Shown piece by piece: positions 3,185 to 58,040 of a stretch of DNA of 64,000 nucleotides; the stretch's first letter is position 1, and the number at the start of each line of letters is the position of its first letter. The DNA comes from Humulus lupulus (taxonomy: Eukaryota > Streptophyta > Magnoliopsida > Rosales > Cannabaceae). The notes below the pieces were generated by a model, which was not told where the DNA came from, searched no databases, and saw nothing but the letters and a program-made list of their open reading frames with translations. The translations under genes were made by a program, and so were the position numbers. The stretch is taken from contig NC_084802.1 in the NCBI RefSeq assembly GCF_963169125.1, positions 117,060,903 to 117,124,902 on the forward strand, given 5' to 3'.

Positions 3185-4639
3185 TACACCCAGTGATTAT
3201 TAAGCTGTTGGGTTTGGGACCTTATTGCCTACTGGGGAGCTGGTAGTCTCTAGGAGACGGGTCAAATCATTACCAGTAAAGGTTGATAGTAGAGAGTTAT
3301 CTGTAGATTTGAGTTGGTTATGGAAGATTTTGACATGATTTTGGGTATGGGCTAGTAGCCAAGTATGGGGAAACCATTGATTGTAAGAATACGATGGTAA
3401 CTTTTAAGCTTGAGGGAGAGGGCTCATTTGTTTTTGTTCCTATAATATAAGCATTGAGAGCTATAGACCTATTGTGAGGTGGTTGCATAGGATTCCTAGC
3501 TAGTGTGGTAGACAACACTAAGGTCGTACCAGTTGGACCTGAAGAGATCAGATTGGTCTGTGAGTTTTTGGATGTATTCCCAGAAGATTTACTAGGGTTG
3601 TTGCCGCACAGGGAGATAGAATTTGTTATTGAATTGGCATCGGGAACAGAATTAGTGTCTAGAGCACCGTACAAAATGGCTCCACTAGAATTGAAGGAAC
3701 TAAAGGTTTAGTTATGGGAGCTACTCTACTTGGGGTTTATCAGGCCTAGTTTCTCGACGTGGGGTGCACCAGTTTTGTTTGTAAAGAAGAAGTAGGGATC
3801 CTTGATGAAGTGCATCGATTACTTGTTTGATTAGATACAGGGAAAGATTGTGTTCTCAAAGATTGATCTTCTATATGGTTATCACCAGCTTAGGATCAAG
3901 GAGGAAAATATTCTGAAGATGACCTTTCGTATGAGGTATGGGCATTACGAGTTCTTAGTCATGTCATTTGGATGGACTAATGCCCCAGCAACTTTTAAGG
4001 ATTTCATGAACAAAGTGTTCAAGGACTGCCTAGATAGATTTGTGATAGTCTTCATCGATGACATCCTGGTTTATTCCTAGTGAGAGGAAGAGCATGAGCG
4101 ACATCTCCAGTTGGTATTACAGTGGTTAAGGGAGAATAGAATGTATGCCAAGTTCAAGTTGCCTCAGATGACGTTCCTCGATCACATTATCAGTAAAGAC
4201 AGAATTAGGTGGACCCGACCAAGATTAGTTGGAGATTGGCCAAGGCCTAAGAGTGCTTCAAAGATCAGAAGTTTCCATAGATTGGCAGGGTACTATTAGT
4301 GTTTTGTTGAAGGGTTCTCAAGGATTGCTAAAACATTGACAAAGTTGACACAAAAGAATCTATATTTTGTATGGTCAGACAAATGTGAGAACAACTTCCA
4401 GGAATTGAAGAAACGAATGATTACAGCTCCAGTATTGAGTATTCCATCTAACCAGGAGAAGTTTGTGGTATATTGTGATGCTTCGACGTAGGGATTAGGC
4501 TGTGTTCTTTTGCAAGCAGGGAAGGTGATCACTTATGTATCACGACAGTTAAAGGAATAAGAACAACGGTACCCTACTCATGATTTTGAATTAGACGGTG
4601 TGGTATTTTCATTGAAAGTGTGGCGACACTATCTTTATG
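3185..4639 (+). pseudogene. Element F (Tekay chromovirus), 5'-truncated protease-RT-RNase H part 1
   Basis: Decayed gag-pol, similar throughout to the same region of element D (46100-47640). It starts inside the protease without gag, leader or 5' LTR. The reverse transcriptase is clear: [11 protein letters not shown] at about 3940 and the catalytic FIDDILVYS at 4050-4077, then RNase H with VVYCDAS near 4470. Stops at 3709-3711, 4078-4080 and about 4489 stand where element D has Gln. Missing residues and an amputated first half show that it is dead. RNase H is interrupted at 4639 by CACTA element G and resumes at 15778. Confidence 0.85.
4637..4639 (+). repeat. Target-site duplication ATG, left of CACTA element G
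   Basis: The 3-bp ATG before CACTACAAG is repeated right after the other terminus (15778-15780). Removing G and one ATG rejoins the Tekay RNase H sequence in line with element D (…CACTATCT-TTATG-GAGAGAGGTG…). Confidence 0.9.
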
Positions 4640-4659
4640 CACTACAAGAAAAAATGATT

Positions 4660-5060
4660 TTAATAACACCAAAAATGTGTTATCAAAACATACCATAACA
4701 CTTTCTGATGTGTTAAGACAGACTATGTTATCGTAGGTCAGGGTACTTTACAATACACTATATCATTGTTATACTGATGTGTTATTATACTGTCAACGAT
4801 AACACACTTTTTTTGTTATTTTAATAAATAGATAAGTGTTTAATTATATTATTTATAGTCGATTATATAACACATTTCAACACTTATAAATTTGTGTTAT
4901 ACAACACTTTAGTATAACACATTTTTTGTGTTATACTACACTTTAGTATAACCCATTTTTTGTGTTATATAATGAAGTTTGCATAACATAATTTTTTACT
5001 TATAACAAGAGTTATTGTAATAGATATTATAACACATTTTTCGTATTATTTTAATATTTA
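4660..5060. repeat. Subterminal repeat region of CACTA element G (left)
   Basis: At least eight copies of a short AT-rich word related to AACACATTTTTTGTGTTAT occur in both orientations (for example near 4805, 4865, 4915-4945, 4955-4975 and 5030). Such arrays are the binding sites for the element-encoded protein in known CACTA elements. Weaker copies (GGATAACATTTTTTT) sit near the right end at about 15716-15750. Confidence 0.7.
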
Positions 5061-5414
5061 AATAAGTTTAAATTCTCATTATATATTCATTTATATAACA
5101 CTAATTTATTCTATTATATTTTTATTTTTTATTTATATAATTAAAATTAGCTTTCTAATATATACTAGCATCATCAAATGAACTTGATTTTCAAATAACA
5201 AAATGTAAAAAGCATTCAACATTGTATTAACAATCCACAAATTAGTTTAAAACATTCAACACTGTCATCAACAACAAAATGTTCTTTAATTATTCAAGTA
5301 GTCTTAAATATTCTACATATTGAAGAGTTTAATTTTTTACATAATAACACGTCAAAATTTGAGCAATTGCACACTCCTACAGTACTATTTGATAGGAAAA
5401 AACATGCAATTGAC
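5061..5414. other. AT-rich spacer in element G
   Basis: Simple AT-rich sequence between the subterminal repeats and the first captured exon. No coding frame, repeat or RNA gene that I can support. Confidence 0.5.
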
Positions 5415-5498
5415 GTTGCTTCATTGCACCAGCCACAATGATGTGATCTTCACTTCCAATTCTAGCAAAACCAACACACTCCGTGTCTTCATTGCAGA
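5415..5498 (-). pseudogene. DPH5: Captured DPH5 (diphthine methyl ester synthase) exon fragment, downstream piece
   Basis: After an acceptor (ttgtag) the minus strand reads NEDTECVGFARIGSED-x-IIVAGAMKQ. This is a strongly conserved block of plant DPH5, the S-adenosylmethionine-dependent methyltransferase that builds diphthine on elongation factor 2. It follows the 5623-5711 exon in the order expected for the gene. The rest of the protein (the VDFGPPLHCLVIVG-like end) is absent, and a possible donor (gt) follows at 5414. Dead fragment captured by the CACTA element. Confidence 0.82.
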
Positions 5499-5622
5499 CT
5501 ACAACGCAACATAATACAACAACATTCAATGTTAAATTGATAAACTAAGTCTGATTTAGTTCTTTGAAATTCAAAGTTAAGACATGAGTGAGTTATAGAG
5601 TAATAGTAGTAGTTATCATTAC

Positions 5623-5711
5623 CATCTACTTTTGCTTGCACAACTTCTAGGAGCTGCTCAATGGCAATCTTTATTGTCATGTACCTAGGTGGTTCATACT
5701 GCTTCTTCCCT
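5623..5711 (-). pseudogene. DPH5: Captured DPH5 exon fragment, upstream piece
   Basis: An 89-bp minus-strand exon with acceptor ttttag and donor gtaatg. It reads GKKQYEPPRYMTIKIAIEQLLEV, the signature C-terminal-half block of DPH5 methyltransferases. The exon ends after a Gln/Lys-rich turn, as in the plant gene, and the next exon (5415-5498) follows after a 124-bp intron-like gap. Two adjacent exons with intact splice sites mean genomic DNA was captured, not a processed mRNA. Earlier DPH5 exons were not found upstream. Confidence 0.85.
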
Positions 5712-7237
5712 CTAAAATTAAACAAGAAATATAGAGAAAAACTCAGAACCTGCATGCATTAATATAATTTCCACCTGAATGGACCCACTATAATTCCTTA
5801 TTGTTACTAAAATCATTCCCATAAAGAAATAATATAAATCAAGAAAAACAAAAAGAACAAAGAACATAGAGAGAAACTAATTTCAGAGGAAAAATAAAAC
5901 AAATAAGGTCATTAAATACAAGAATTGAAACTTATCACATTTCAGAGTAAAGAAAACCAGGAAACCAGACCTATGCAACTCAGGAGAAAAAGAAAGGGAA
6001 AGGACAATTCATACTAACTAATTTATCACCCTATATTCCATAAGAAGAACCAATATGAAGAAACAATTCATACAGTTTGTACTAACTTCTATCCCCATTT
6101 ATTTCTTCTCTAAAGACCTAGCAAGGTTAATTCCTTTCTGTAAAGTTCAATACAAACATAGCATTGATGTGTAAATAGCTTTGGCAAAATTCTCTCTGTG
6201 ACAGGTAACCAACAGGGCATCAAGTATGGCATCCAAATTAACAAGTAGAATGTGAATATGGCTGTTAGAGGTCCTTTATGAAGCCCATGCTATTCCTCTT
6301 ATTCTCCCAAAGTTTCTCTTTCTTTCTATGTTCGAAGTGGGAAATGTGTTTAGAGTTAGGTTATGGGAAGTTTAATGGAGGGGCTTTTCTCTTTTTAAGA
6401 TCTCTTTCCCTGGTATTTTCTTATCTTGGGGTGATAATATTTCTAAACATTCTATGTAACACTATTGAGTTTTGCTTTTGCTGGTATTTTCTTATCTTGG
6501 GGTGATAATATTGCTTTTGCTTTTGCTGTAAAATACCATGAGTATCACATAAACAACCAAGTAAAGTGAACAACAAACTAAACTAAACCAAAGACAGCAA
6601 TAAGAAAGTTATATATGCAACTAGCTACACAGAGAACAGAGGACAAAAGATACAATAAGAAAGTGGAGACAAAAAGGCTAATGGAAGCAAAAGACAGATT
6701 CAAGCCTTATCATATTAAACCATTCACAACCCCTTAATGAAAGTTTATAGTCCCTAAACACAGATTAAAACTAACATGTGAAGATGAAAGAAATAACAAG
6801 AATGCATATTCTTCATCTTGATTATGTATTATACAGGTAGGGCAGGGCATACACGTATATAATTTATATATCTTACACCTCTATTGCTACATAAATGGCT
6901 ACTAACGGTAATGCATAGAGGCAACGGTACATGATTAGAGTGGGCAGAAGGGATCATACATCATCTTGATCATCTATACACACCCCATAAAAAAGCTGAT
7001 TAAAAAAAAGCTATAATAATAACTTAATTTACTCATATGTCTCACTGAAGCATTCCATCAAACAGTTATTATGCATAGGTTAAGCAAAGCTTAGTTTTAT
7101 ATAATAAAACCAGTTTAAGCAGTCAAACAAAAGAAAACTTACAGATAAATTGACTCAAACATCAATTAACACAAATACACTCTATTTCAAATAAATTATT
7201 AAGTTTCAAAAGGAAAACAGCAGTAAGAATTTCAGAC
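5712..7237. other. AT-rich spacer in element G
   Basis: Non-coding AT-rich sequence. It holds a local direct repeat: the GGTATTTTCTTATCTTGGGGTGATAATATT word occurs near 6411-6440 and again at 6483-6512. No supportable gene. Intron-like sequence of the captured fragments is the likeliest description. Confidence 0.45.
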
Positions 7238-7300
7238 CTTCGGTTCGAGTTGTCAATAAGTAGAATGGACCACTCCAACACATAATTCCTTGGGTCGAAC
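7238..7300 (-). pseudogene. Unassigned captured exon-like segment (21 codons)
   Basis: A 63-bp open stretch on the minus strand between acceptor ttgcag and donor gtctga. It reads FDPRNYVLEWSILLIDNS in one frame. Its composition is exon-like against AT-rich flanks and it has the same orientation as all the other captured fragments. I cannot name the parent gene. Confidence 0.35.
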
Positions 7301-8345
7301 CTGCAACCAATAAAAAAAGCAAATTGATACAGAACTCAAATAAAATATAGTGCAACTCATAAACAATGGAAATGGATACTGACCTTGAACAACATAGAGC
7401 TAGTAAAGTTCAGCAAAAATGCCAGTCATGATATGATAAATATCCTAAAATTTCATTGACAATGTATGATACCTCAATATGTGCTACTGACACGTCATTG
7501 AGAAAAAAGAGGACCCTAGAACATGGTTTGCTATTTTGTGTAAATAACAGTAATACTAATGCAATGGTTTTTTTATGATGCTATATAAAATGCTGATAGA
7601 AACTCAAACTAAAAAAAAAAAAGAGCAAAACATATAATAGAACAAAAACAATAACCATAAAACAAAGACAATCAGATAAATAACCAAGAAACCAAACCCC
7701 AAAAAAGAACCCTTGGATCCAATATTGTGGTTTAGCTACCACAATTCCACACATAACAAATGTACAAATTACATTAGTAAAAAAAATAGAAAATTATGCA
7801 GAACATAAAGGAGAAATCAAGGGTTAGCTACATAACAGAAAGTTAAAGTACAATGCAATATAGTAGTTGTGGCAACCATGAGCAATTGTTATATGTTATT
7901 TAATATACGTCAAAGATAAATAGATAAACAAGAAAATATATATAAATATAACCCATTAATTTTTGGAGTTGATATAACATATATTTTCAAAGCTATTTTT
8001 GAAAGAAAATTGAATCTGGATCACTAATGCAAAACATTAATACAATTAACAACCAAATAAAATGAACAAGAAAGAAACATGACTCAATCCAAACAAACCA
8101 TGATATCATATATGGCATGGGGAAGAATATACATAACCCTATAAAAGACACTACAACCAATTCAACAAACCCAAATTTGAGACTAAGTGGCATGGCAAAG
8201 AAGATGCAGAAAGGTCATGTAAAATCCTGCTATAGAACCAATCTTTTCCATAAATGAGCACAAATCATTTTCTTCTTTAAGTTAGCAAATAAAACAGAGA
8301 ACCAGTAAATAATTAGAAAAAAAAAGTATGATCACTATAACTTAC
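7301..8345. other. AT-rich spacer in element G
   Basis: No coding frame or repeat that I can support. Probably intron or captured flanking DNA. Confidence 0.4.
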
Positions 8346-8417
8346 CAATTTTTTGAACTTCTCAATTGTCATGAGTGGTATGGTACCAAGAGAAATGATA
8401 TTCCTAGTTCCTTCAGT
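8346..8417 (-). pseudogene. Captured myotubularin exon (PH-GRAM domain), downstream piece
   Basis: A 72-bp minus-strand exon with acceptor ttcaag and donor gtaagt. It reads TEGTRNIISLGTIPLMTIEKF. This is the end of the PH-GRAM lipid-binding domain in plant myotubularin-type phosphoinositide 3-phosphatases (GTIPL-x-x-IEKF is the family landmark). It follows the 8645-8719 exon across a 227-bp intron-like gap, as in the gene. The catalytic domain (CSDGWDRT motif) is not present in the window. Confidence 0.78.
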
Positions 8418-8644
8418 CTTGAAAAAAAAATTACTCAACATAAATAAAGATAAAAGAAAATCATGCACCAAAAGGAAGCACAATGTATTCAATAAAATTG
8501 ACTTGATATAGCCAAAAGATTACTATTCCTCAAAACTAGAGGTCTGAGAATTCAGTCAAACGAAAGCAGCCATACATGTAGACCAAATACTAGCTTAAAT
8601 TCAACAAAAGATACTAAGGTGGAAATACTACACGATTCACATAC

Positions 8645-8719
8645 TAGAAAAATAAGTCGCTAATTAGTTACTAACAGTGTCCCTGCCTCATCAGTGTTAA
8701 CAAGAACAACACCATAACC
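8645..8719 (-). pseudogene. Captured myotubularin exon (PH-GRAM domain), upstream piece
   Basis: A 75-bp minus-strand exon with acceptor actttcag and donor gtatgt. It reads GYGVVLVNTDEAGTLLVTN, then a small frame break, then RLIFL. This is the start of the PH-GRAM domain of plant myotubularins. The frame break (an in-frame stop after VTN) shows decay. Order and spacing with the 8346-8417 exon match a two-exon genomic capture. Confidence 0.78.
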
Positions 8720-9886
8720 CTGAAAGTAAATTCAACTATTACTAATCTAGAAAGTGCATACCAGAAAAATGTGATAATAGAACAGTTAATATATTCACAA
8801 AATCTATCACCGATAAAACAGAATACTTTTAGAGATAAAATCTATCGCCGGTAATTTATCACAATTACTTACTATGCAATCAATCCCCAAGTTATTTTGT
8901 AATTAGGTAACAAGAAATGTATCATCACAGTTTTTCTGCTCTAACGTAACTTTTGATTTGGCATAACTTACCTCTACAAACATGGCAGAGAATACTGATT
9001 ATTAATAGGGTCCTATTGAATATATTTCAGTTAACAGTTAAAAGAGTAAAGAAAATGATGTCGTGGTGGATATGAAAACTGAGAATAATAAGAAGAAAAA
9101 TATATTCTTCAATGCTTGAAGCTTTGAACTATGAACTTATAATGTCTCTTGTGTGGTGTTTCTTGAATCTATGAGCTAAAATGAGAATTCATAACCAAAA
9201 AAATTCTGAAATGCCTTATCAAAATGTTTGACAAACACAAATCTTTAGTTAAGAAGAGGAAGGAAATTAGTATGTAAAACAAATCTACATGTTTGATTTT
9301 TCATATCTGTTTTAGTAACCATATTTATTGTGTTCTGAGTTTTGTGCCTAATCAGAAAGTGTGATCTTGAAGTGGTGTGTATGTATGCAACAGAACAAGA
9401 AAGAGAGGTTCTCTACTGTTTCAGGTCTGAAAACCCATGTAATCACAATAAGAGAATATATATGAACAGATCTACCAAGCTAATTTTTTTGCTAACAGAT
9501 CTACCAATAGATAAAATTCTCTTGCTAATCTTACAGTTTCATATAAGAGAACAGATCTACCAAGCAAATTTTTTTTTTATGGTAAATCACCACAATGGAA
9601 AACAGATAGAAAGCAAAAATATGGTATAAAGGGAAATGGAAAAGGACACCTGAGAGATATTATACTTTCAAAATCTCATCCAAGCAGAACCTGCTTACTT
9701 AGAAAAACCATCCAAACAAATAAAATACTTTCAAAATCTCATCCAAGCACTCCCAAAAGAGATTTTTGGTCTCTAGACAGTCTCATGCCAAATAGACCAG
9801 TAAAGACTAAAATTAAAAGACACAAATCAACAAATAAAATTCGTTTCTTTGGTGGGGAAGAGAGTAGTGAAAGTAGATATATAAAT

Positions 9887-9927
<41 letters not shown>

Positions 9928-10259
9928 CCCATGCTTTACACCCTTGCTGAGAGAAACATGTATTTTGGTGATTCAAACTTATAGAAAAAATAATGATGGC
10001 CACATACTAGTAGTATATACAATAAAAGAAGCCAATACAACATGCCAACTCATATATACATATATTGGAACAATACTTGAAAAAAAAAGTATTGGAGTAT
10101 ACTGTGGAATCAGTAATAGAAGAAATTGAAGAAACAACATGAAAGAAGAACTTCGAAAGATCATCAGAAAATCAACAAAAAATGCAATACTTTATGTATA
10201 TGTCATCGACCAATCAATAGAAATTGAAAATAAAATCACAAAGATCAATCCCAGCTTAC
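8720..10259. other. AT-rich spacer in element G
   Basis: AT-rich DNA with repeated words (AACAGATCTACCAA near 9465, 9500 and 9552; CTTTCAAAATCTCATCCAAGCA near 9665 and 9729) and the AG microsatellite listed separately. No gene supported. Confidence 0.45.
9891..9924 (+). repeat. (AG)n microsatellite
   Basis: Seventeen AG dinucleotides in a row. It lies inside CACTA element G and has no coding meaning, although it lengthens an accidental Arg-Glu reading frame. Confidence 0.95.
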
Positions 10260-10397
10260 TTTTGAGAAAAATTGACCCACTTTGGATAATTCCAATCACC
10301 TTTCTTCATTTCAATATCACTTCCTCCTGACTTCTTTGGTCCCTCAGCTTTGCACCTCAGGCAGCGGATATTTCTAGCAAAATTGGTGAAATTGCAT
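10260..10397 (-). pseudogene. Captured RanBP2-type zinc-finger protein exon
   Basis: A 138-bp minus-strand exon with acceptor gctgcag and donor gtaagc. It reads CNFTNFARNIRCLRCKAEGP, the second half of an NZF/RanBP2 zinc finger (x-N-F-A-R-N-x-x-C-x-x-C), then a linker and the start of another finger (KKGDWNYPKW-x-NFSQ). In that second finger the two expected Cys are Tyr and Trp, so the zinc site is lost. Plant organelle proteins of the VAR3 type carry such finger arrays, but the exact parent is uncertain. Confidence 0.7.
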
Positions 10398-11355
10398 CTG
10401 CAGCACATCAAAAGGGAATCAACCATGAGTTTAGGAAAAAACAAAAGTGAAAAAGGGACCTTAAGAAATAGAAAAATTGAAGAAACTGTGACTGTGGCAC
10501 ATCAAAAGGGCATCCATTCCAAGATTGAATTAAATATATACAAAAACTATAAATAGGATCATACTGTGTGAATTGTAAAACAGGGGTAAAAAAAAAGTTG
10601 AAAGAATGTATAAAAAGGGTAGTTTAACTCAGCTACAAATAGAATTAATCAAGGAAACAAAAAGAAATCATGAAACATAAAGAATAAAACTATTTTCAAA
10701 CAACTAAAACCAAACAATTTTAGAAAGGGGACCAAAGAAATAAATAAGTCTGTTGCATCATTGAGTCCCTAACCTTATGTGTAGCCAATAATCCCATTTT
10801 ATCCAACCAGTACTAGATTTCCAATATAAGCACCAACTGGGGCATAGGACTCCAAAGTCTTTTAGGTACCAAATTTCCAGGCAGTATGTCCTGAATCTAA
10901 GCATGCACTATAGCCAATCTCAGTCTAATCATAACTATGATTTATCACTAGCTAGAACTTGTTTCAGGACATACAGTAAGAACTTGCACTCTTAACGGTG
11001 GACCAATTAAACATCAAATACTAACATACAACACAAAAGTGAGCCCCAGTTGATTAAAAAAAACAAATCTTTTGTCGAAATCATTATCTTGATTACTCAA
11101 TCAACTCATTAGTCATGGAACCCAATAGTGATCTAAGACCTCTTTCTGTTTTTAAGGCCCTTGAGTGAGGACTTTGGGAAAATATATGGCCACCAGACTA
11201 TGCCAGCAACTAAAACCATGTTACTAATGTACAAACACTTCTGTTACCCCCAAAACATAGGTAAAAATCACATCTTTTTCAGGGAAATTCAAAGCAAAAT
11301 GTAATATCTTTAGCTTATAAAAAAAGCTAAAGTAACAGAGTTTTCTGGACATTAC
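10398..11355. other. AT-rich spacer in element G
   Basis: No coding frame, RNA gene or clear repeat. Intron-like. Confidence 0.4.
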
Positions 11356-11422
11356 AAGTGGGAATCCCCTTGCAAAGAGCCCAAGACCCACAACAGAAAC
11401 CAGTGGCACGATTATAATAGGA
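11356..11422 (-). pseudogene. Captured nucleobase-ascorbate transporter (NAT) exon
   Basis: A minus-strand segment reading SPIIIVPLVSVVGLGLFARGFPL with a possible acceptor (ttatttag) and donor (gtaatg). In plant NAT (xanthine/uracil permease) proteins the segment FFSPLxMVPxVxxVGLGLFxRGFP occupies this place, a transmembrane helix and loop. The continuation (CVEIGLP) is absent. The longer accidental ORF around it (11224-11514) is not the exon. Confidence 0.68.
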
Positions 11423-12463
11423 CTAAATAAGCCATTTATGAAGAATTTTTTGCTCTTTTGGCTAGACTTTACGCAGATGTAGAATAGTAGCAATTTTGCT
11501 CTAGTTCGAACCAAGTAAATTCTGGTGTGTTGTTTCCTGTTATTTTGTTATTCTTTGTTTTACTGTTATTTGTTAGATCAATTTTTTGTCTTTAAATTTG
11601 TATCTTCATTAAAGCTTCTGTTTTGTGGTGTTCTTCCTGATATACCTGGCACAACAGAAACTATCTATTTTTCAAGTTTCTCAACCAGAATTAGATACTA
11701 TATGACCAAACCAAAACAACACTCAATATTGATAACCTCATACTAACAAGTCTATGCTCCTTTATGCCTCAATTCAATATATGACATATCATATTTGACA
11801 TACAATTGTCTTTTTACAGATTGAAACTTATATGTTTGAAGAAAAAATGAAAAAAAAAATAAATAAAAAAAACCCACTTTCTGTATGTAGTATATGTTAA
11901 GTGTTGGTCAAATGCTCAAGGTCAACTTGGCTATTATTGGACATCATAACTGAATTTTGTAAATTCAGTTATGACAGTTGGTGCTCGGGCCTTGGAGGGG
12001 ATTTTAGTCACTTACATCACATGTATATATATATAAGGCTCCTATTCTATCATTTAATCCAATTTAGTTTTTACATACATTGTAATATTGAGAGTGAGTT
12101 TTAGAGAGCCTAGAGATATCTTGTACTACTGTTATGAGAGAAGCTTGGAGCTAGACTCCATTGTTCGACAGATTGAAACTTAGAATCAATAAAGAGATTG
12201 TCAAGCCCTTGGGGCTGGTTTTGGCCGTGGAGTAGAGTGGTGTCTAGCCAACATAATAAAAGAAATTGTATTAAGGAACAGAATGAAACATCTCTGAATA
12301 ATAAAAAAAAGATAAGTAAAAACTGCAAGAAATATTCATTTAGTTACTATATTAGGATTAATATGTACTCTCAGAAGATTATGTTTGTCTATAAGATGGA
12401 TGCATGTATTTATGTGTTTATTCAACCAAGCCTCAATCAACGAAACTTAAACGAGTACTCTAC
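11423..12463. other. AT-rich spacer in element G, with a perfect inverted repeat and an LTR-like stretch
   Basis: Contains a perfect 14-bp inverted repeat with a 3-bp loop (arms 11944-11957 and 11961-11974). Positions 11895-12253 look like a small solo LTR: TG start, TATATATATAAGG near 12024-12036, AATAAAG near 12189 and an end in CCAACA. I found no matching target duplication, so the LTR reading is weak. No gene. Confidence 0.3.
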
Positions 12464-12538
12464 CTGGACAAACCCATATAGGCCAAGAATGGACATAGCA
12501 TTTGCACCAAGTACTTTTAATCTAAATTCAACATGTGG
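12464..12538 (-). pseudogene. Unassigned captured exon-like segment (25 codons)
   Basis: A 75-bp open minus-strand stretch between acceptor ttttgcag and donor gtagag. It reads PHVEFRLKVLGANAMSILGL and then YGFVQ. Length is a multiple of three, splice sites are good and the residue composition is protein-like. I do not recognise the parent gene. Confidence 0.4.
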
Positions 12539-13117
12539 CTGCAAAAAACATTAGAGACAATAATGAAAGAAGGAAATACATATTTTTTTTAAGACAAGAC
12601 CTAAAAGAGTGCCACAAATATAAATAAGTAAACAAATAAATAAGAGTGTCATCAAATTATAGAACTCAAAACTGATTCTGTATATCCAACCTCTCCTCGA
12701 ATGATTAGTTGCAGTGAGAAATAACTAGACTCATAATAGAAAGAGGCCATATGAATCACAATACTGATATGAAAATTTACCAAGAAGATTTTTATACTTC
12801 AAGACTTCAACAACTGAGCCCCAAAATTTAGTCTAATGTATCATCAGAGACAGCTTAATAAAAATTTATATATTTATATATATTAAATCAAAACAGATAT
12901 ACATGCTTAATAACTTCAATTTAGCATCAAGATGACATGATTTTATGACAAATATAAATCAGAGACGTAAATATGACATGATTTTATAAATTCGATCAAG
13001 CACAGAACCATCTACACTAACAGTAAACATTTCCTGCCCAATGACAATTACATGAAGTTTTGAATAAGATGTACATTACCAAAAATAAGATTGCACAAGG
13101 GTTCAACAACTTTAAAC
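12539..13117. other. AT-rich spacer in element G
   Basis: Intron-like AT-rich DNA; nothing supportable. Confidence 0.4.
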
Positions 13118-13186
13118 CTCAGGCTGTGGACAGTCAGCTCTACTTCTGTGCACCGTAGTTAGAATGTCTCGAGAATACCCATTTTC
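13118..13186 (-). pseudogene. Unassigned captured exon-like segment (23 codons)
   Basis: A 69-bp open minus-strand stretch between acceptor gtaccag and donor gtttaa. It reads ENGYSRDILTTVHRSRADCP and then QPE. It is in phase with the 12464-12538 segment if both are spliced, so the two may be neighbouring exons of one parent gene. Not recognised. Confidence 0.4.
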
Positions 13187-14520
13187 CTGGTACAAATGGA
13201 AAAAGAAAAAGCGTCAGAGCACTAAAAATCTTACAGAAAGATTAAATTATCTGGGACAGGCCTATGGCTACTAAAACTGTCAGTTAGTTTTCACTTAATT
13301 TGATTGGGTAAAATGGTATCCTTGTTAAATCAAAAACAAAATTCAGAGCTTTAGTCCCGTTGATAGATTTGTAATAGGAATAGTCCATGCATTATAGAAT
13401 AATTGTTCCCTTTTTAAAAGTTTACGAAATTGGACTAGTATGCATTTTTTTTGTAATAAAACAGATGGAAAACTAACTGTACAACTTTCAAAATTCTGGT
13501 ACGTATAAAGCAACTTAAGATACACAAAAATAGAACTTCAAAACATATTATTAATAACTATATTCTGACATGAGATTAATCATCAGAGCAGAAGAGTAAA
13601 CACGAACTAAGTCTCTATGATCAAGAAAGGACTCGAGTAAGAAAAGGCACTATCAATAAGGGCATACACTTGGCAGCTGATATAAATAATTGTGATAGGT
13701 TCACATATATGATGATAAGTGTGCTAAATAAGTATAGGCCAACATATTCATTCAAAAGTATTCTAAAGTAGTTGCAAAGTTAAAAAATTGGAGACCCTTT
13801 ATGTATATATTGACATGGTTAAAAAATCAAGCAAAGTTAACATTCCAAGATGTCGTTTAACTCACAAATGGAAAGAGAGCTTCTACAAATATACCACTGC
13901 ACACTTAAACAGAGTGGAGAAGAGAAGACGTGTGCCTCAATTGAAAGAAGAAAAGAGCAAAGAAATGGTTATATGTACGAATCTATAAAAATGGTGACAA
14001 TCTATATAACCAGGACCTAAAGTACAAATATAGTCACTCCAGTCTAAAAACTCACACCTCACGGCTGCATTCAAAACCTCAAATATCAACCCTAATTGAC
14101 CAACACCCAATCGTGCAAGGAAGACCCAAATTGAACAAGAGAGATGCTCCTACTTTTATTCTTTATTTCACATGTATACACACATTATAATAAATCATAT
14201 TAAAAACAATTAAACATAAGCGTATACAATGCACATAAAATTAATAAGGAAATTTACACACATATATATAACACATACATGTATATAGATCAAGCATAAT
14301 ATTTGAAATAACAAACAGAATATCTTAAAAGAATATACCTTCTTATTCAGTTTCTAGAGATCTTTCTCCTTTTTTGAAAGTTTAAATCAAGCCCTAAATC
14401 AACTTTTTCCAACCATAGTTGTAATGAAGTGAGGCCGGAAAAAAAAAACACAAATTAAGAGCACAGCAGAGAGACTGGAGCATAAAAATACCCCATAAAT
14501 ACAAAAATGGATATTAAAAA
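13187..14520. other. AT-rich spacer in element G
   Basis: No supportable coding frame. AT-rich, with short A runs. Confidence 0.4.
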
Positions 14521-14770
14521 AAAAAGCTTATATTAACTGAGAGAGGGACAAAAACTGGAGATACCCTGAGTGAGAGAAAGAGAAAGGTAACCAGGAAAAA
14601 AAAACAAGAAAAAGATTACACATACCTAGGGATTTCGTGTGAAAGAGAAAGAGGCAGTGAGAGAAAGAGAGAAGCGGTGAGAAATAGGTAACGTTGAGTG
14701 AGAGGAGGAGAGGGTTTGGGGATTTGGCAAGATAAATAAAGAGACTGTGGATCATACAACACGAATGGAT
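14521..14770 (-). promoter_or_regulatory. CT-rich leader-like segment with splice donor (captured 5' UTR candidate)
   Basis: On the minus strand this is strongly CT-rich (repeated CTCTCTTTCTCTCACT words), as plant 5' leaders often are. It contains a good donor (CCCTAG|GTATGT) near 14626. It lies upstream of the exon-like pieces at 13.2 to 5.4 kb and on their strand. It could be the first, non-coding exon of a chimeric unit. No start codon or expression evidence. Confidence 0.3.
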
Positions 14771-14952
14771 CAATTCTAATTTACACACTACTTAGTAACC
14801 TAAATGTAAAAGAGTTCATCTTGGTTACTTCAATTGGTAAATTTCTCAAATTTTCTAGATAAAGTATCATAAATGTAGCTCAATTTTGGAAACAAAAGTA
14901 ACATAAACGCTAAAATCAACAACTGAGCTGAGCAAAAGTACCATGAACTCAC

Positions 14953-15356
14953 CTCAATGCACGAAGCCTCATCCGAGCCTCCAATCGATGACGACCCTCC
15001 CAAGAATTCGGCATCCGCTGCTCGAATCCAATGTGAATGGTCCAGAGTCCCGACTTGGCGAAGATCGAATCGGTCTCATTGCTAGCTCCACCAACCTCCA
15101 CCACGATCCAAACGACTTCTTACGGCACCAGCATCAGCGAGTGCATCAGACCGGTCATGTGAAGGGCCTGGAACGTCCTCACATAAGTGGGAGTCACCAC
15201 AATGACGGTTCTAGGGTTCTTGACTCCAAATTGATGCCTCTGCTCCCTCTAAACCGTGTCAATAATCTGGTGCGCCTTCATGACCTCAGCCAGATTCGGA
15301 TGCGGCCAAGGCCTGATTCAGATCCCGTGGCGGCCAACCACCGCACGACTAGTAGA
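14953..15356 (-). pseudogene. IRX14: Captured IRX14-type GT43 glycosyltransferase exon fragment
   Basis: The minus strand reads a long, easily recognised block of the plant xylan-backbone glycosyltransferase IRX14 (family GT43, Golgi): VVGRHGI, PWPHPN, EVMKAHQII, VTPTYVRTFQALHMTG, MHSLMLVP, VVWIVVEVGG, NETDSIFAKSG, IGFEQRMPNSWE. It ends MRLRALR at a perfect donor (gtgagt). Three in-frame stops (after HGI, after IIDTV and after LMLVP) kill it. Only this exon is present. The DxD metal-binding region encoded downstream in the gene is missing. Confidence 0.9.
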
Positions 15357-15777
15357 ACTACCCGTAGAGGACTAGAATTTGGGGATTTCGGTGAGAGGTA
15401 GGGAGAGCTGGGAGTTTGAGGCTGTGGGGAAATTTCTGGGAAATTTGGAGAATTTCCTCTTGGAAAGTTTGGAAATTTTATTAGAGAGGTCTCGGAGGTT
15501 CGAGAAAATTTGGGGTTTGGGTAGGGAGATTTCTGCTAGGTTTAGATAGATGTGAGGGAGACAGAGAGTTAAGAGAGAGAATGAGATATGCAGATTTAGA
15601 AAATGAGAATATCAAGTGAAATAATACAATATTTGGCACAATTATTTCATTTATCGCCAATTAATGTATTTGTGCACCATTTTTTTTTTATGTCCTCCCA
15701 AATTTTATGGGTTTAGGATAACATTTTTTTAAAAGAGTTATACTTAAATGTTGTGGAAAGGGTTATTTGGTGTAGTG
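15357..15777. other. Right end of CACTA element G
   Basis: On the minus strand, 15357-15560 may be further IRX14-type upstream coding or leader DNA, but I recognise no conserved block in it. The last 200 bp hold subterminal AACATTTTT-type words and the terminus …GGTGTAGTG. Confidence 0.5.
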
Positions 15778-15780
15778 ATG
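15778..15780 (+). repeat. Target-site duplication ATG, right of CACTA element G
   Basis: Matches 4637-4639. Confidence 0.9.
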
Positions 15781-40842: not shown

Positions 40843-40967
40843 TATTTTTTGTGTAACCTTTGGATGAGGTGCTTCCACCTCGAGACAATTTCATTCAACG
40901 CTTTTAATTGATCCTCTTTCTTGCCCTTACGCATTTTGGTTACAATATTTTGAAAAAAAAAAAAAAA

Positions 40968-42025
40968 ACTTAGTTCGCGTTAATCTTTATCCATATCTCG
41001 AGCTCTCTAAGAAGAACAACGATCAATAGATTTAAATCAACTTCTAAGTTTTATGACCTGGTTATGACCAGGAACTTAATTTGAAAACTTAGTTCGCGTT
41101 AACTTTTATCCATATCTCGAGCTCTTTAGGAAGAACAACGATCAATAGATTTAAATCAACTTCTAAGTTTTATGACCCGGCTATGACCAGGAACTTAATT
41201 TGAAAACTTAGTTCGCGTTAACTTTTATCCATATCTCGAGCTCTTTAGGAAGAACAACGATCAATAGATTTAAATCAACTTCTAAGTTTTATGACCCGGT
41301 TATGACCAGGAACTTAATTTGAAAACTTAGTTCGCGTTAACTTTTATCCATATCTCGAGCTCTTATGGAAGAACAACGATCAATAGATTTTAATCAACTT
41401 CTAAGTTTTATGACCCGGTTATGACCAGGAACTTAATTTGAAAACTTAGTTCGCGTTAACTTTTATCCATATCTCGAGCTCTTATGGAAGAACAACGATC
41501 AATAGATTTAAATCAACTTCTAAGTTTTATGACCCGGTTATGACCAGGAACTTAATTTGAAAACTTAGTTCGCGTTAACTTTTATCCATATCTCGAGCTC
41601 TTTAGGAAGAACAACGATCAATAGATTTAAATCAACTTCTAAGTTTTATGACCTGGTTATGACCAGGAACTTAATTTGAAAACTTAGTTCGCGTTAACTT
41701 TTATCCATATCTCGAGCTCTTTAGGAAGAACAACGATCAATAGAGTTAAATCAACTTCTAAGTTTTATGACCCGGTTATGACCAGGAACTTATTTTGAAA
41801 ACTTAGTTCGCGTTAACTTTTATCCATATCTCGAGCTCTTTAGGAAGAACAACGATCAATAGATTTAAATCAACTTCTAAGTTTTATGACCCGGTTATGA
41901 CCAGGATAGGACTTAGTTAGCGTTAATCCTTATCAATATCTCGCGTTTTTTAAGAAAAACAACGGTCAATCGATATGAATCAACTTCTATGTCATTAAGG
42001 AGACCTGGTTATATCCAGGTACCAT
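40968..42025. repeat. Tandem array, 119-bp unit, eight full copies plus divergent ninth
   Basis: The unit starts ACTTAGTTCGCGTTAA. Copies begin at 40968, 41087, 41206, 41325, 41444, 41563, 41682 and 41801, an exact 119-bp step. The eighth is 9 bp short, and a diverged copy runs from 41911 to about 42025. Each unit has a near-palindrome CCTGGTTATGACCAGG or CCCGGTTATGACCAGG. Copies differ at only a few positions. The array lies between the end of pol (minus) and the accessory gene (plus), and an A run precedes it. Confidence 0.95.
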
Positions 42026-46000: not shown

Positions 46001-48100
46001 ATTTTTAGCGCTGGATCCTTGTTTACTGCATTGATTGATTCTGGTGCTACGCACTCATTTGTTTCTGCTAGGGTGATTGATCAGCTGTGTAGACCTAGTA
46101 TTTTGTATCCTAGGGGTTTTCAGACTATATTGCCTACAGGAGAGCTGGTAGTCTCTAGGAGGTGGGTTAGAGCCTTACCAGTAGTGGTAGAGGGTAGAGA
46201 ATTGTTTGTTGACTTGATTGAACTAGAGATGGACGATTTTGATATAATACTAGGGATGGATTGGTTGACGCGGTATGGAGCAACCATTGATTGTAGGCGA
46301 CGAATGGTGACCTTTGAACCGGAGGGCGAGGCACCCTTTGTGTTCGTGGGAACAGTGGATGGACCGCGGGTGCCTATGATCTCGGCACTAAAGGCTAGAG
46401 ACCTGATGCAGGAGGGTTGCATAGGATTCCTAGCGAGTATAGTAGATTCCTCCAAGGTGGCAGCAGTGGGACCGAATGAAACCAGAGTTGTCTGCGAGTT
46501 TCCAGACTTGTTTCCAGCGGATCTGCCGGGGTTGCCGCCACAGCGGGAGATTGAGTTCGTCATAGAGTTGGCTCCGGGAGCAGAGCCAATATCCAAGGCA
46601 CCTTACCGAATGGCTCCGGCAGAATTAAAGGAATTGAAGATGCAGCTGCAGGAACTACTAGATTTGGGGTTTGTCAGACCGAGTTTCTCGCCATGGGGTG
46701 CTCCAGTTTTATTTGTTAAGAAAAAGGATGGATCGCTCAGGATGTGCATCGATTACAGGGAGTTGAATAAGTTGACCATCAAGAACAAGTACCCATTGCC
46801 TAGGATCGACGATTTATTTGATCAGCTTCAAGGGGGTATAGTGTTTTCGAAGATTGATCTCCGATCAGGCTACTATCAGTTGAGGATCAGGGAAGAGGAC
46901 ATACCAAAGACTGCATTTCGGACGCGGTATGGGCATTATGAATTTTTGGTTATGTCCTTTGGGTTAACCAATGCCCCGGCGGCATTTATGGATTTGATGA
47001 ACAGAATTTTCAAGGATTACCTGGATAAGTTCGTGATTGTGTTTATTGATGATATCCTAGTATACTCCCAGTCAGAGACAGAGCATGAGCATCATCTGCG
47101 CCTGGTGTTGCAGCGGTTAAGAGAGCATAAGCTATATGCTAAGTTTAGCAAGTGCGAGTTCTGGTTATCGCAAGTTTCATTTCTAGGCCATATTATTTGT
47201 AAGGATGGGTTACTGGTCGACCCAAGCAAGACGGAAGCAGTGAGAGATTGGCCTAGACCCAGAAGTGTTCCTGAAGTTAGAAGTTTCCTTGGACTAGCAG
47301 GTTACTACCGGCGGTTTGTAGAGGGGTTCTCCAGAATTGCTACTCCGTTGACAGAACTGACAAGGAAGAAGACCAAGTATGTGTGGACAGATCGATGTGA
47401 GAACAGCTTTAAAGAGTTGAAGCGGCGGTTGATCACTGCACCAGTGCTGAGCCTGCCAACAGATGATGAGAAGTTTGTGGTCTACTGTGACGCTTCTAGA
47501 CAGGGTCTGGGATGCGTGTTGATGCAGACTGGGAAAGTGATAGCGTACGCATCAAGGCAATTAAAGGAGTACGAGCAGAGGTATCCCACGCATGACCTGG
47601 AATTAGCTGCAGTGGTATTCGCCCTTAAGGTTTGGAGACACTATCTGTATGGAGAGAGGTGCGAGATATACACTGATCACAAGAGTCTAAAGTATTTCTT
47701 TACCCAGAAGGAATTGAATATGCGCCAGAGACGGTGGCTAGAGATGGTAAAGGATTACGATTGTGATATCCTATACCATCCTGGGAAGGCTAATGTAGTG
47801 GCTGATGCATTGAGCTGGAGGGGCCCAGGACAGCTGTATAGTTCGAGGCAGATATTTGACAGATTAGCTGGAGAGATGGCCAGAGCAGGTATAGAGTTAG
47901 TGGTTGGTAGGTTAGCCAACATTACTCTTCAGTCGACGCTCCTCGAGAGGATTAAGGAAGCACAGGGAAAGGACCCCCAGTTAGTTGAACGTAGAGAGAA
48001 TGTCCTAACTGGAGCAGCTAAGGACTTCTCTATTTCTGAGATGGGTTTGTTGAAGTACAAAGGACGGATTTGCGCTCCGATTGATCCAGACATTCGGTGA
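46001..48100 (+). CDS. Element D protease, reverse transcriptase and RNase H
   Basis: The longest open frame in the window (693 aa from Met 46019). Protease: [16 protein letters not shown] near residues 1-16. [49 protein letters not shown], catalytic [13 protein letters not shown] near residue 345. RNase [15 protein letters not shown] (Asp), [12 protein letters not shown] (Glu), [10 protein letters not shown] (Asp), then tether [15 protein letters not shown]. In-frame TAG at 45998 lies just upstream and TGA at 48098 ends it. The most intact pol here. Confidence 0.93.
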
Positions 48101-52672: not shown

Positions 52673-54538
52673 AATGCCATAGAGCCATTCAATGCATGTT
52701 CATCGACTTTAGAGTCGGTCCAGCATTAATGCCATAGAGCCATTCAATGCATGTTCATCAACTTTAGAGTCGGTCCCTGACTAGTCAGTGCCATACACAA
52801 GTAAGTCATGCCACCAAACATATATCACATGTTCGATATCCATAAACAAGGTATTCAACATGCATACTAAACATATACTAGTACAATTAGCACCATGAAC
52901 AACCAGAGAGGCTCAAGCTCTGAACGATATTATACACAGTATACAAAGCATGTCCTAATCACATGTTTCTCATGCGTCATATGTACAATATTCAACAATC
53001 CAACATGCACCAATAACAGCCATGCATGTCACGTTTATTAATCAACCAACATGCATCAAGAATAGCCATGCACGTCATACTTAATAATCAACCGACACGC
53101 ATCAAGAATAGCCATGCATGTCATACTTAATAACCAACCGACATGCATCAAGAATAGCCATGCATGTCATACATATACACAGGGTGCAGTTTTCTTACCT
53201 CAAAGTCGAGCTAGAACGATTAAAAGAACGACCCTTGAGAACGATCAACTTCTAGTCCATTAGCGGTCACCTAGTCATAACCAAATATAAGATACCATCA
53301 ATAAAAATGACCAACATGAGTTCCCAAACCAATACCTAGCCTCCGGAACATCAATCCCCACTTAACTGGGTACTAGGTTCAACCCCGAGGCCTAAGGCTT
53401 GATTTCCCAAGCTAAAAACACCATTTTGGTCAAAAAGGTCACTAAGGGCCGCGGCCCGCCCTAGCTGCGCCGCGGCGCGCCCGTCAGACAGAGACTACCC
53501 TCCCTGCCAGACTCCTTGAGTCGCGGCGCACCACAGTGATGCCGCGGCTCAATACCCAGTTTTGCTAAAAACTCAGCATGCACCAGCTCGCCTCCCCTGC
53601 GTTTTCCCTTGGAACCAAGCCCTTCAAACCTGTCCCAAACCTTCTCCAAACACTCAATTAAACCTCTAAACATCACCCATAATTTCCCCTCATCAAAACC
53701 CAAGCTAAACATCAATTAAAACCTCCTCAAATCCAAACTTTCAACAAGAATCAAAAGCTGAAAAACCAAAGGGAAAAACAGAGCACAACCAGAAACTAAA
53801 AACTAGAACTCACCTCAAACTCGATTTTGAATCCCCTTTAATGGCTGAAACAGGTTCTCTAGCTTCCACCTTTGATCTCCTAGCTTAACACCTCAAGATG
53901 GCCCTCAAAATTCAAAGAAAAGGATGAGGATGGGCTCTGTTTTATTCTGTTTTCCACAGCCTTCTAAACACTCAAAGGCTGATATAAATCCCTAAGGTTA
54001 AAATACCATAATGCCCCTAAGCCAAATAAATCCCTCTAAAGGCTTCCGAGGGTAAAACCGTCCTTTCCCGCTTATCTCGTTAATTATAATTAACGCTCTC
54101 CAATTCCTGCTATTCTCAATATTCTCAAATACCAATAAATCATATCCCATTACCCTCTTACTCCCGGTAATGTTCTAGTCATCAAAATGACCCCGAGACT
54201 CACCCCGAGCCCCGAACTTAAACCCGTTATGACTAGACCGAACTCTTACAGCTCATATCGTCTCATGCCGAATAGCTCGAACCAATCCACCTTATAATGT
54301 GGCTATATTAATTAATCACAACCATGCACCCAGAATACCCAATTACGCCCACAGCGGCCAAATTACCAAAATACCCTTATAATAATAAATACTCCCAAAT
54401 GCATGCATTCACCATCATATAATAATATAATTCATGTAAACATGCATATAATCATTAAATACCATAATAAGTCAATTATGGCCTTCCCGGCCTTCTAATC
54501 AAGGTCCTAAACCTTATTAGGAAATTTGGGGCATTACA
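52673..54538 (-). repeat. Element E 3' LTR, part 2
   Basis: Continues from 36550. Includes tandem words (GCCATAGAGCCATTCAATGC repeated near 52676 and 52732), about four copies of a 46-bp unit around ATGCATCAAGAATAGCCATG (52990-53170), and the palindromic GC words (GGGCCGCGGCCC, CGCCGCGGCG, CGCGGCGC, GCCGCGGC) at 53448-53550. Ends GGGGCATTACA. Plus and minus ORFs inside it are accidental. Confidence 0.87.
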
Positions 54539-56997: not shown

Positions 56998-58040
56998 TTA
57001 TTGCCCTGGAATAAACACCCGAGTTAGAATCGAGCTGTCCATCCCCCTTTGCTCATCCTTTAACACAGGGAACCTCTTCACAATATGCCCAACCATACCA
57101 CATGCAAAACATGCCTTTGCTCGGCATTCTCCCAAGTGATGTCTCTTGCACCGCGTGCATATTGGACGAGTCTTCCAGCTTTCATTTTTACTTGTTCTAA
57201 TAGGTGGAGGTACCACTATCTGAGCTCCATGCTCTCCAGCACACTGCTGCCCAATCTGATGTCCTGTGCTCTCAACAGCAAGAGCCTTCCCTACCACCTG
57301 AGCATAGGTAGAGACTTCATGCACTGGGGCAACTCTAATGCCCTGAGCTATACCAGGATTCAACCCCTGAATAAACCTTTCCTTCTGAGCTATATCTGTG
57401 GGTACCATGTCTAAGGAAAACTTGGCCAACTCATCAAATTTAGTAACATACTTGGTCACTGATGCATTACCCTGAACGAGATTCAGAAACTCATTCATCT
57501 TAGCAGTTTTAGCTACATCACAGTAATACTTCCCATGAAACAGATGCCTAAATTCTTTCCAGTCCATCACAGCTGTGTCTCATGTCTGGGATACTACCTC
57601 CCACCATGTCCGGGCATCATCCCGCAGTACACATGTAGCACAGATCACCCTATCGTGACCTACCAGTCCCATACTATCAAGGATGGAACTGATCATGCCC
57701 ATCCATTGCTTAGCTCTGAATGGATCTAGGCCTCCCTCGAAGACTGGAGGATAAAACTTCAGGAATCTTCCATAGAGGAATTCCCATCTATTCTCAACCC
57801 TAGGCTGAGCTGAAACCGATGCCACCCCTGGCATAGCAAAGGAAGGGGTACTACCCAACAGACTCCGCGGTTGCTTCAAATACCTGATCTCTTCCTCATG
57901 CCTCTACAATCTTAATTGCAAATCTGTAAGCGTCTGCTGAACATTCAAAGATGCAGACGAAGAACTGATACCCTGGCTGTAACTCCCAGCCCCTGTATAA
58001 CTATCACCAGGTCTCATAACCTGCCTTGAATATAAACCTG
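56998..58040 (-). pseudogene. Element E gag
   Basis: Minus strand. The N-terminal helix (QQTLTDLQLRL…EEEIRYLKQ) starts near 57960. 57879-57580 has FYPPVFEGGLDPFRAKQWM and VLRDDARTWWE. TGA at 57577 (CGA expected). Then 57570-56998: MDWKEFRHLFHGKYYCDVA, MNEFLNLVQGNASVTKYVTKFDEL, and a knuckle CTRCKRHHLGECRAKACFACGMVGH with the last Cys changed (KRFP). A typical Tekay gag; particle protein. Confidence 0.85.

Follow-up and report, generated by a model that had tools for sequence, protein, structure and literature searches.

The window analysed here is a 64,000-nucleotide stretch of the hop genome (Humulus lupulus; contig NC_084802.1, forward-strand positions 117,060,903 to 117,124,902). At 4640–15777 of the window lies an intact CACTA transposon of 11,138 bp (GC content 0.32) whose captured host exons are read on the minus strand. 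We interpret it as a non-autonomous member of a hop Pack-CACTA family that exists in many copies and has a constant left end, a replaceable right side and sense-oriented exons, a reading to which we assign a probability of about 0.74. The main evidence is a set of left ends that are nearly identical between copies, right ends that mostly are not, and host domains that, where recognised with confidence, lie on one strand throughout the sampled family.

Element ends and the family of related copies

The element begins with CACTACA at 4640, ends with TGTAGTG at 15777 and is bordered by a 3-bp target-site duplication (ATG at 4637–4639 and ATG at 15778–15780). The left copy of the duplication lies inside a gypsy-type RNase H frame. 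Joining the flanks over a single ATG reconstructs the empty site and restores an open frame, which resembles the reverse transcriptase–RNase H region of a gypsy open reading frame (ORF) at 46019–48100. The initial annotation, made from this sequence alone, had described one 11.1-kb CACTA element with CACTACA ends and an ATG duplication in a retrotransposon RNase H gene; the ends, the duplication and the restored frame bear this out. Inverted ends starting with CACTA, as in En/Spm elements, are present in this element and in ten other complete copies, although the left end of one of these, S06, is mutated to CACTTGA instead of CACTACA. Helitrons have neither a target-site duplication nor CACTA ends, and Pack-MULE elements have a 9-bp duplication and long inverted repeats. 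The former class is therefore ruled out by the CACTA ends and the 3-bp duplication, the latter by the 3-bp duplication and by ends that differ from each other beyond CACTACA. No transposase family was found at E ≤ 0.01 among the longer ORFs scanned (132 in this element, 561 in ten sisters), and among these ORFs the element is thus without a transposase of its own. As in other Pack-CACTA elements, host coding DNA has been captured (IRX14, DPH5 and RED here, many more in the sisters), and the copies compared combine common ends with differing interiors.

Related copies were sought in 2.48 Gb of genome (121 contigs), and 40 of 2231 first-look candidates were scored. Within this sample the left 601 bp occur at ≥ 95% identity in at least 40 places, the present one included. 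Sixteen copies were inspected, this element and 15 sisters (S02 to S16). Both ends were found in 11 of the 16, with an exact 3-bp duplication in ten and one mismatch in the remaining copy, S15, so that the termini are indeed common to other copies, as had been anticipated. The right end of S13 lies beyond the sequence taken, and S02, S03, S04 and S08 have no TGTAGTG followed by a matching duplication. Complete elements span 7.7–12.7 kb. The nearest sister, S06, is collinear with our element at ∼ 95–96% identity over most of its length and has a longer IRX14 piece.

The two ends of these elements differ markedly in how well they are conserved. The left end, a 632-bp 'head' at 4640–5271 that carries TGTGTTAT/ATAACACA subterminal repeats, is 96.0–98.1% identical in all 55 pairs of the 11 complete elements. 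Over the right end (about 64 bp, 15714–15777 in our element), identity exceeds 90% in only four of the 55 pairs (this element/S06, S05/S12, S09/S10 and S09/S14) and is 61–89% in the other 51; our element is 97% identical to S06 here and 69–75% identical to six other complete elements. Right ends do not simply change faster, because our element and S06 agree at 96.5% on the left and 96.9% on the right. The plain reading would be a young common left end combined with different, older right ends, and such right ends are what the hybrid-element model for Pack-CACTA predicts (PMC13317346, PMC8903248; these and the papers cited below by PMC number are drawn on in excerpt). The left/right contrast within a pair is not forced by sampling copies through their left ends.

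Inward of the left end, the copies share sequence with our element to varied depths: 632 bp in S09, S10, S13 and S14, about 680–690 bp in S07, S15 and S16, 964 bp in S11, and 1128 bp and more in S05 and S12 (the shared part being the first blastn stretch, which stops at indels). No inverted shared segment longer than 150 bp was found between any two of 12 elements. The varied depth of sharing and the far more diverged right ends support the earlier proposal of serial capture or fusion. Of eight complete elements, seven have a GC content of 0.43–0.54 in one or both of the two 400-bp bins nearest the right end, compared with 0.32–0.35 overall; S05 is the exception, with 0.35 in both bins.

Some repeats lie outside this argument. 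S06 (loci L017/L018) contains a 2.7-kb insert resembling a solo long terminal repeat (LTR), which starts with TGTAATGTCCC, ends with GGGGCGTTACA and has the short direct repeat TCAAC. Part of this insert is ∼ 82% like two paired long repeats of the window (52782–54538 and 59373–61164), which flank a gag-like minus-strand ORF (56998–57570) and resemble an LTR retrotransposon. A tandem array at 40965–41906 consists of 7.9 copies of a 119-bp unit with 97% matches.

Captured exons and their strand

From right to left along its minus strand, the element holds an IRX14 exon, two RED exons, an unnamed exon, a RanBP2-type zinc finger, two PH/GRAM pieces, an exon-like piece and two DPH5 exons, with AG and GT borders wherever the pieces were inspected. 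Since introns and splice signals flank the captured exons, they were not copied from mature mRNA.

The IRX14 (GT43) exon lies at 14953–15369 (minus strand, 5′ limit set by us), contains in-frame stops and ends at the donor AG/GTGAGT. It matches Pfam at 6e-6, and a query that bridged an in-frame stop matched 29 database proteins, the best at 92% identity. The first RED exon (ENGYSRDILTTVHRSRADCPQPE; 13118–13186, minus strand) has AG/GT borders, and three annotated hop proteins continue from IRX14 into it; the second (EMFTVSVDGSVLDRIYKIMSYLRL; 12962–13033, minus strand) follows the acceptor GGGCAG. Taken singly, the two reach Pfam E-values of 0.0011 and 0.0018 over adjacent stretches of the profile (180–199 and 199–222), and the second alone had no match in the PDB. 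Joined, they match at 3.3e-13, above the curated cut-off. DPH5 is likewise represented by two exons around an intron: an upstream exon (GKKQYEPPRYMTIKIAIEQLLEVVQAKVD; 5623–5711, minus strand) with AG before and GT after it, and a downstream exon (NEDTECVGFARIGSED..; 5400–5498, minus strand, 3′ limit set by us) with the acceptor TTGTAG. DPH5 is matched by diphthine synthase in the PDB at 4e-9, and a query of the two exons with the following segment matched 21 database proteins. Searched against Pfam, this copy's DPH5 frames matched no DPH5 family, and the NCBIfam dph5 model reached only 0.011 in sister S12.

The remaining pieces are less clear. The RanBP2-type finger (10259–10408, minus strand; limits set by the reading frame and not by splice sites) matches PF00641 at E = 0.005, or 0.012 for the whole ORF, which is below the cut-off. 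Two minus-strand pieces with AG/GT borders, at 8645–8719 (GYGVVLVNTDEAGTLLVTN, one in-frame stop, then RLIFL) and 8346–8417 (TEGTRNIISLGTIPLMTIEKFKKL), gave no match when searched singly. Joined, with X at the in-frame stop, they match Pfam bPH_3 at 6.5e-4 and GRAM at 0.099, and have no match in the PDB. They may derive from a myotubularin, as had been proposed; the domain type fits this name without proving it. At least two exon-like pieces with AG/GT borders, both on the minus strand, are without an assigned parent family: 12464–12538 (PHVEFRLKVLGANAMSILGLYGFVQ) has no family match and 7238–7300 no convincing one. A nucleobase-ascorbate transporter, also proposed at the outset, found no support: the exon at 12464–12538 had no match and the frames tried over 7165–7409 gave only PRR22 (0.33) and Csf1_C (0.23).

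Three source genes, IRX14, DPH5 and RED, are thus well supported as contributors to this copy, and the PH/GRAM piece and the RanBP2 finger weakly suggest two more. Of the parts in the initial annotation, which had named at least five unrelated host genes and counted at least three unassigned pieces, the IRX14 and DPH5 assignments hold up in protein and profile searches, the myotubularin and the zinc finger do so only weakly, the transporter has to be dropped, and RED, which it had not named, is to be added. Its remark that all fragments lie on one strand is correct for every recognised piece in this copy.

The one-strand arrangement is a property of the sampled family and not of this copy alone. 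We scanned ORFs on both strands of 11 elements against Pfam, 365 on the minus and 328 on the plus strand. For our element, ORFs of ≥ 35 aa were used (72 of 74 minus, 60 of 63 plus, with ORFs in the ends omitted); for S05, S07, S09, S10 and S11, ORFs of ≥ 45 aa (162 minus, less 14 of exactly 45 aa, giving 148, and 145 plus); and for S12–S16, ORFs of ≥ 46 aa with the first 640 bp omitted (145 minus, 123 plus). S13 was covered over its first 8980 bp; S06, which repeats our element, and S02–S04 and S08 were outside the scan. Families were collapsed to likely host sources, with the RING families counted as one, VHS with GAT as one and tRNA-synt_2 with OB as one. At E ≤ 1e-4, 14 collapsed host families fall on the minus strand and none on the plus strand (binomial p 1.2e-4): a class-III aminotransferase, GT20, a RING protein, an OPT transporter, a VHS protein, MRS2-like, VPS13, APD1-4, lysyl-tRNA synthetase, the CCT-theta chaperonin, anthranilate phosphoribosyltransferase, XRN, POT1 and GT43. 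At E ≤ 1e-3 the count is 15 to 1 (p 5.2e-4; both p-values treat source genes as independent), the single plus-strand family being DUF1235 (6e-4), which is unexplained.

Individual matches in the sisters are strong, for example Glycos_transf_3 at 6e-22 and XRN at 3e-13, and in ORFs of S12–S16, where the minus strand was scanned, NCBIfam identified LysRS, CCT theta and TrpD. RAPTOR (4e-25) and a subtilase (4e-9), both on the minus strand of sisters, were picked by eye and stand outside the strand count, as does RED, each exon of which is singly above 1e-3. Above the count thresholds lie PQ-loop, Ninjurin and YmcE on the minus strand and DUF3910 (0.008) on the plus strand; a plus-strand ubiquitin match at 0.008 was rejected as a likely chance hit, its best score against ubiquitin being 3.6. 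Among single chosen ORFs, 7 of 10 matched Pfam. Pieces named by eye as TOM1-like and TPST agree in part with Pfam VHS, GAT and Sulfotransfer_1, and two ORFs picked for them had no match. Several consecutive exon-like pieces on the minus strand of S16 (L033) resemble, on inspection by eye, a single callose synthase gene and its introns; a search of the PDB gave one unrelated match at 0.034.

Chimeric hop gene models and a proposed mechanism of capture

Several annotated hop proteins appear to be built from exons of this family. Three proteins named IRX14H (P0001, P0002 and P0025; 152, 118 and 77 aa), all ending in ..RALRKMGILETF, run through the IRX14 exon to the donor AG/GTGAGT and are joined, out of frame, to the first RED exon at CAG/GAAAATGGG. 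In P0031 (LOC133816492, 110 aa), an exon that occurs in S09 and S13 (donor G/GTATTT) is joined to a DPH5 exon whose acceptor, TTGCAG/TC, is alike in S12 and S05, giving GT-AG borders. The stop codon of this reading lies at position 676 of the S05 and S12 elements, some 45 bp outside the 632-bp head that the copies share. In our element the stretch between DPH5 and the head (5318–5401, minus strand) matches residues 72–99 of P0031 at 93%; the last residues of the P0031 tail (..AESSNFSIC) match sister elements, not this copy. A search for proteins ending like P0031 returned only P0031 itself and P0030, another hop database protein composed of exons that occur in the family. P0035, a 148-aa 'RAPTOR1-like isoform X2', joins RAPTOR to DPH5. 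Four annotated hop proteins thus join exons found in this family, probably with P0035 as a fifth, and they are perhaps mis-annotated as ordinary genes. The models suggest that the elements are transcribed from right to left and spliced.

We propose that the element is moved by the transposase of an autonomous relative, and that capture would occur when the left end is mobilised jointly with a right end that belongs to an older neighbouring element, the DNA between the two being carried along; such a hybrid-element model has been proposed for Arabidopsis Pack-CACTA (PMC13317346, PMC8903248). Internal deletions may follow capture. Transcription would then run leftward from the right side, the captured exons being spliced together and the transcript ending next to the head. 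Antisense arrangements would be missing either through selection or through oriented capture, between which we do not choose. In its fullest form, the proposal is that the family acts as a directional exon collector: the fixed left end and a shared last exon stay, every capture exchanges the right side and recruits a right end along with it, only sense exons are gained or kept, and the copies are chimeric transcription units that seed spliced hop genes. We put this forward tentatively, with the odds somewhat against it.

A number of points weigh against our interpretation. The sister copies were chosen by similarity to the left end, which makes left ends look alike, and neither the end count nor the strand count includes S02, S03, S04 or S08. 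In S04 a sequence resembling a right end is followed by TGT instead of the expected GGT, a single mismatch, and this copy might count as complete; S03 and S08 have inverted right-end matches only. The subterminal repeats TGTGTTAT/ATAACACA are dense in the first 700 bp, with 0–1 in the last 700 bp. The independence of the captures rests on the families being unrelated. Separate collinear blocks occur beyond the shared left part in S05/S12, in S09/S10/S13 and in our element/S11, so deletion has a part in shaping the family as well. The chimeric proteins are models from databases, and their location inside elements is deduced from exon identity; they were found with minus-strand queries only and are no test of strand, and the join in P0035 is not clean in the copies compared.

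These points bear on the alternatives to different degrees. Gap repair would account for the interiors without any recruitment of right ends, if break repair after excision copied unrelated genes into the element and the present members were internal-deletion descendants of a few long ancestors. S09 and S10 do look as if derived by deletion from an S13-like element, three of their four junctions having overlaps of 2, 6 and 10 bp and the fourth a 10-bp gap, and S05 and S12 show collinear blocks with gaps between them. However, simple descent expects right ends as alike as left ends, and 51 of 55 pairs have 61–89% on the right against 96–98% on the left, which makes this account quite unlikely. 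It is barely conceivable that AT-rich DNA produced the exon-like pieces as chance matches. Matches of the RanBP2 and PH/GRAM pieces are weak and a further two pieces are unmatched, but RED (3e-13), IRX14 (6e-6) and DPH5 (4e-9), Glycos_transf_3 (6e-22), XRN (3e-13) and RAPTOR (4e-25) in the sisters, and a plus strand that yields almost nothing in the same scan already refute it for most of the named pieces.

Within the reading of a constant left end and a replaceable right side, the one-strand rule could itself arise in two ways. It may be mechanistic, capture taking place at genes in one orientation, for instance because the ends insert near promoters in a set orientation. The lack of any plus-strand family at E ≤ 1e-4 and the raised GC content of right-end bins (0.43–0.54 in seven of eight complete elements), as the 5′ ends of genes might have, are consistent with this; S05, with 0.35 in both bins, is not, and the captured PPR piece of grapevine Cactavine-5 is described as having the opposite orientation (excerpt of PMC2528002), so that we regard a mechanistic rule as unlikely. 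Selection, which in our judgement falls just short of an even chance, would act if antisense exons under the element promoter made antisense RNA to essential genes and were lost, sense exons being spliced harmlessly. The annotated chimeras do join exons in sense order, and exons of Tgm-Express1 are spliced into soybean host transcripts (excerpt of PMC1947982). Against this, the chimeras were found by sense queries only, and many copies may be silent.

Comparison with known systems

The way in which DNA transposons gather unlinked pieces of genes is not settled. In a family whose left ends are almost identical, whose right sides can be replaced and whose cargo lies on one strand, the order and polarity of capture can be read from sequence, and selection against antisense exons versus oriented capture becomes testable. 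There is also a consequence for annotation: a number of short gene models in hop (IRX14-like, RAPTOR1-like and DPH5-like) are suggested to be transposon-borne chimeras. The literature searched yielded no publication on hop CACTA elements with captured gene fragments. Neither a family-wide one-strand rule nor an age contrast between left and right ends was found stated in it, and earlier mention in Tpn1 2004 or Catoni 2019 is possible.

Tpn1 of Japanese morning glory, with 339 mostly non-autonomous CACTA copies of mean length about 7 kb, 3-bp duplications and some transcribed members, resembles the hop family in that terminal regions are conserved and interiors replaced by captured host sequence; the excerpt of PMC5105172 does not state the strand of captures or an age difference of the ends. 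Pack-CACTA and other Pack-TYPE elements are likewise non-autonomous, carry several loci each, with the most in maize Pack-CACTA, and grow by fusion of neighbours, but are mostly of low copy number, unlike the multi-copy hop family; no analysis of captured-gene strand was found in the excerpts (PMC8903248, PMC13317346). Maize Helitrons, from another superfamily, also gain several gene fragments per element stepwise (excerpt of PMC3288121). CACTA elements with host genes are further described in wheat 3B (PMC4290129) and in grape, where the PPR piece captured by Cactavine-5 is described as running opposite to the transposase ORF, unlike the one-strand exons of hop (PMC2528002, both in excerpt). 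One-strand sense capture is therefore not general for CACTA elements.

The closest parallel is soybean Tgm-Express1 in the wp allele, in which five unrelated host genes have contributed the exons and introns between the CACTA ends and the pieces serve as cassette exons in spliced chimeric RNAs (excerpt of PMC1947982). The number of parents in our element, which had been thought unusual, is thus matched there. Both have CACTA ends around exon and intron pieces of several unrelated host genes. Splicing is proven for Tgm-Express1, whereas database models suggest it in hop. Tgm-Express1 is one 5.7-kb insertion; the hop elements belong to a family of many copies in which the left end is constant and the right ends have diverged, and their one-strand count extends over 11 elements. 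We therefore rate the single copy as a further multi-gene CACTA element and, within the literature searched, regard as new the one-strand rule of the family and the age contrast between its left and right ends.

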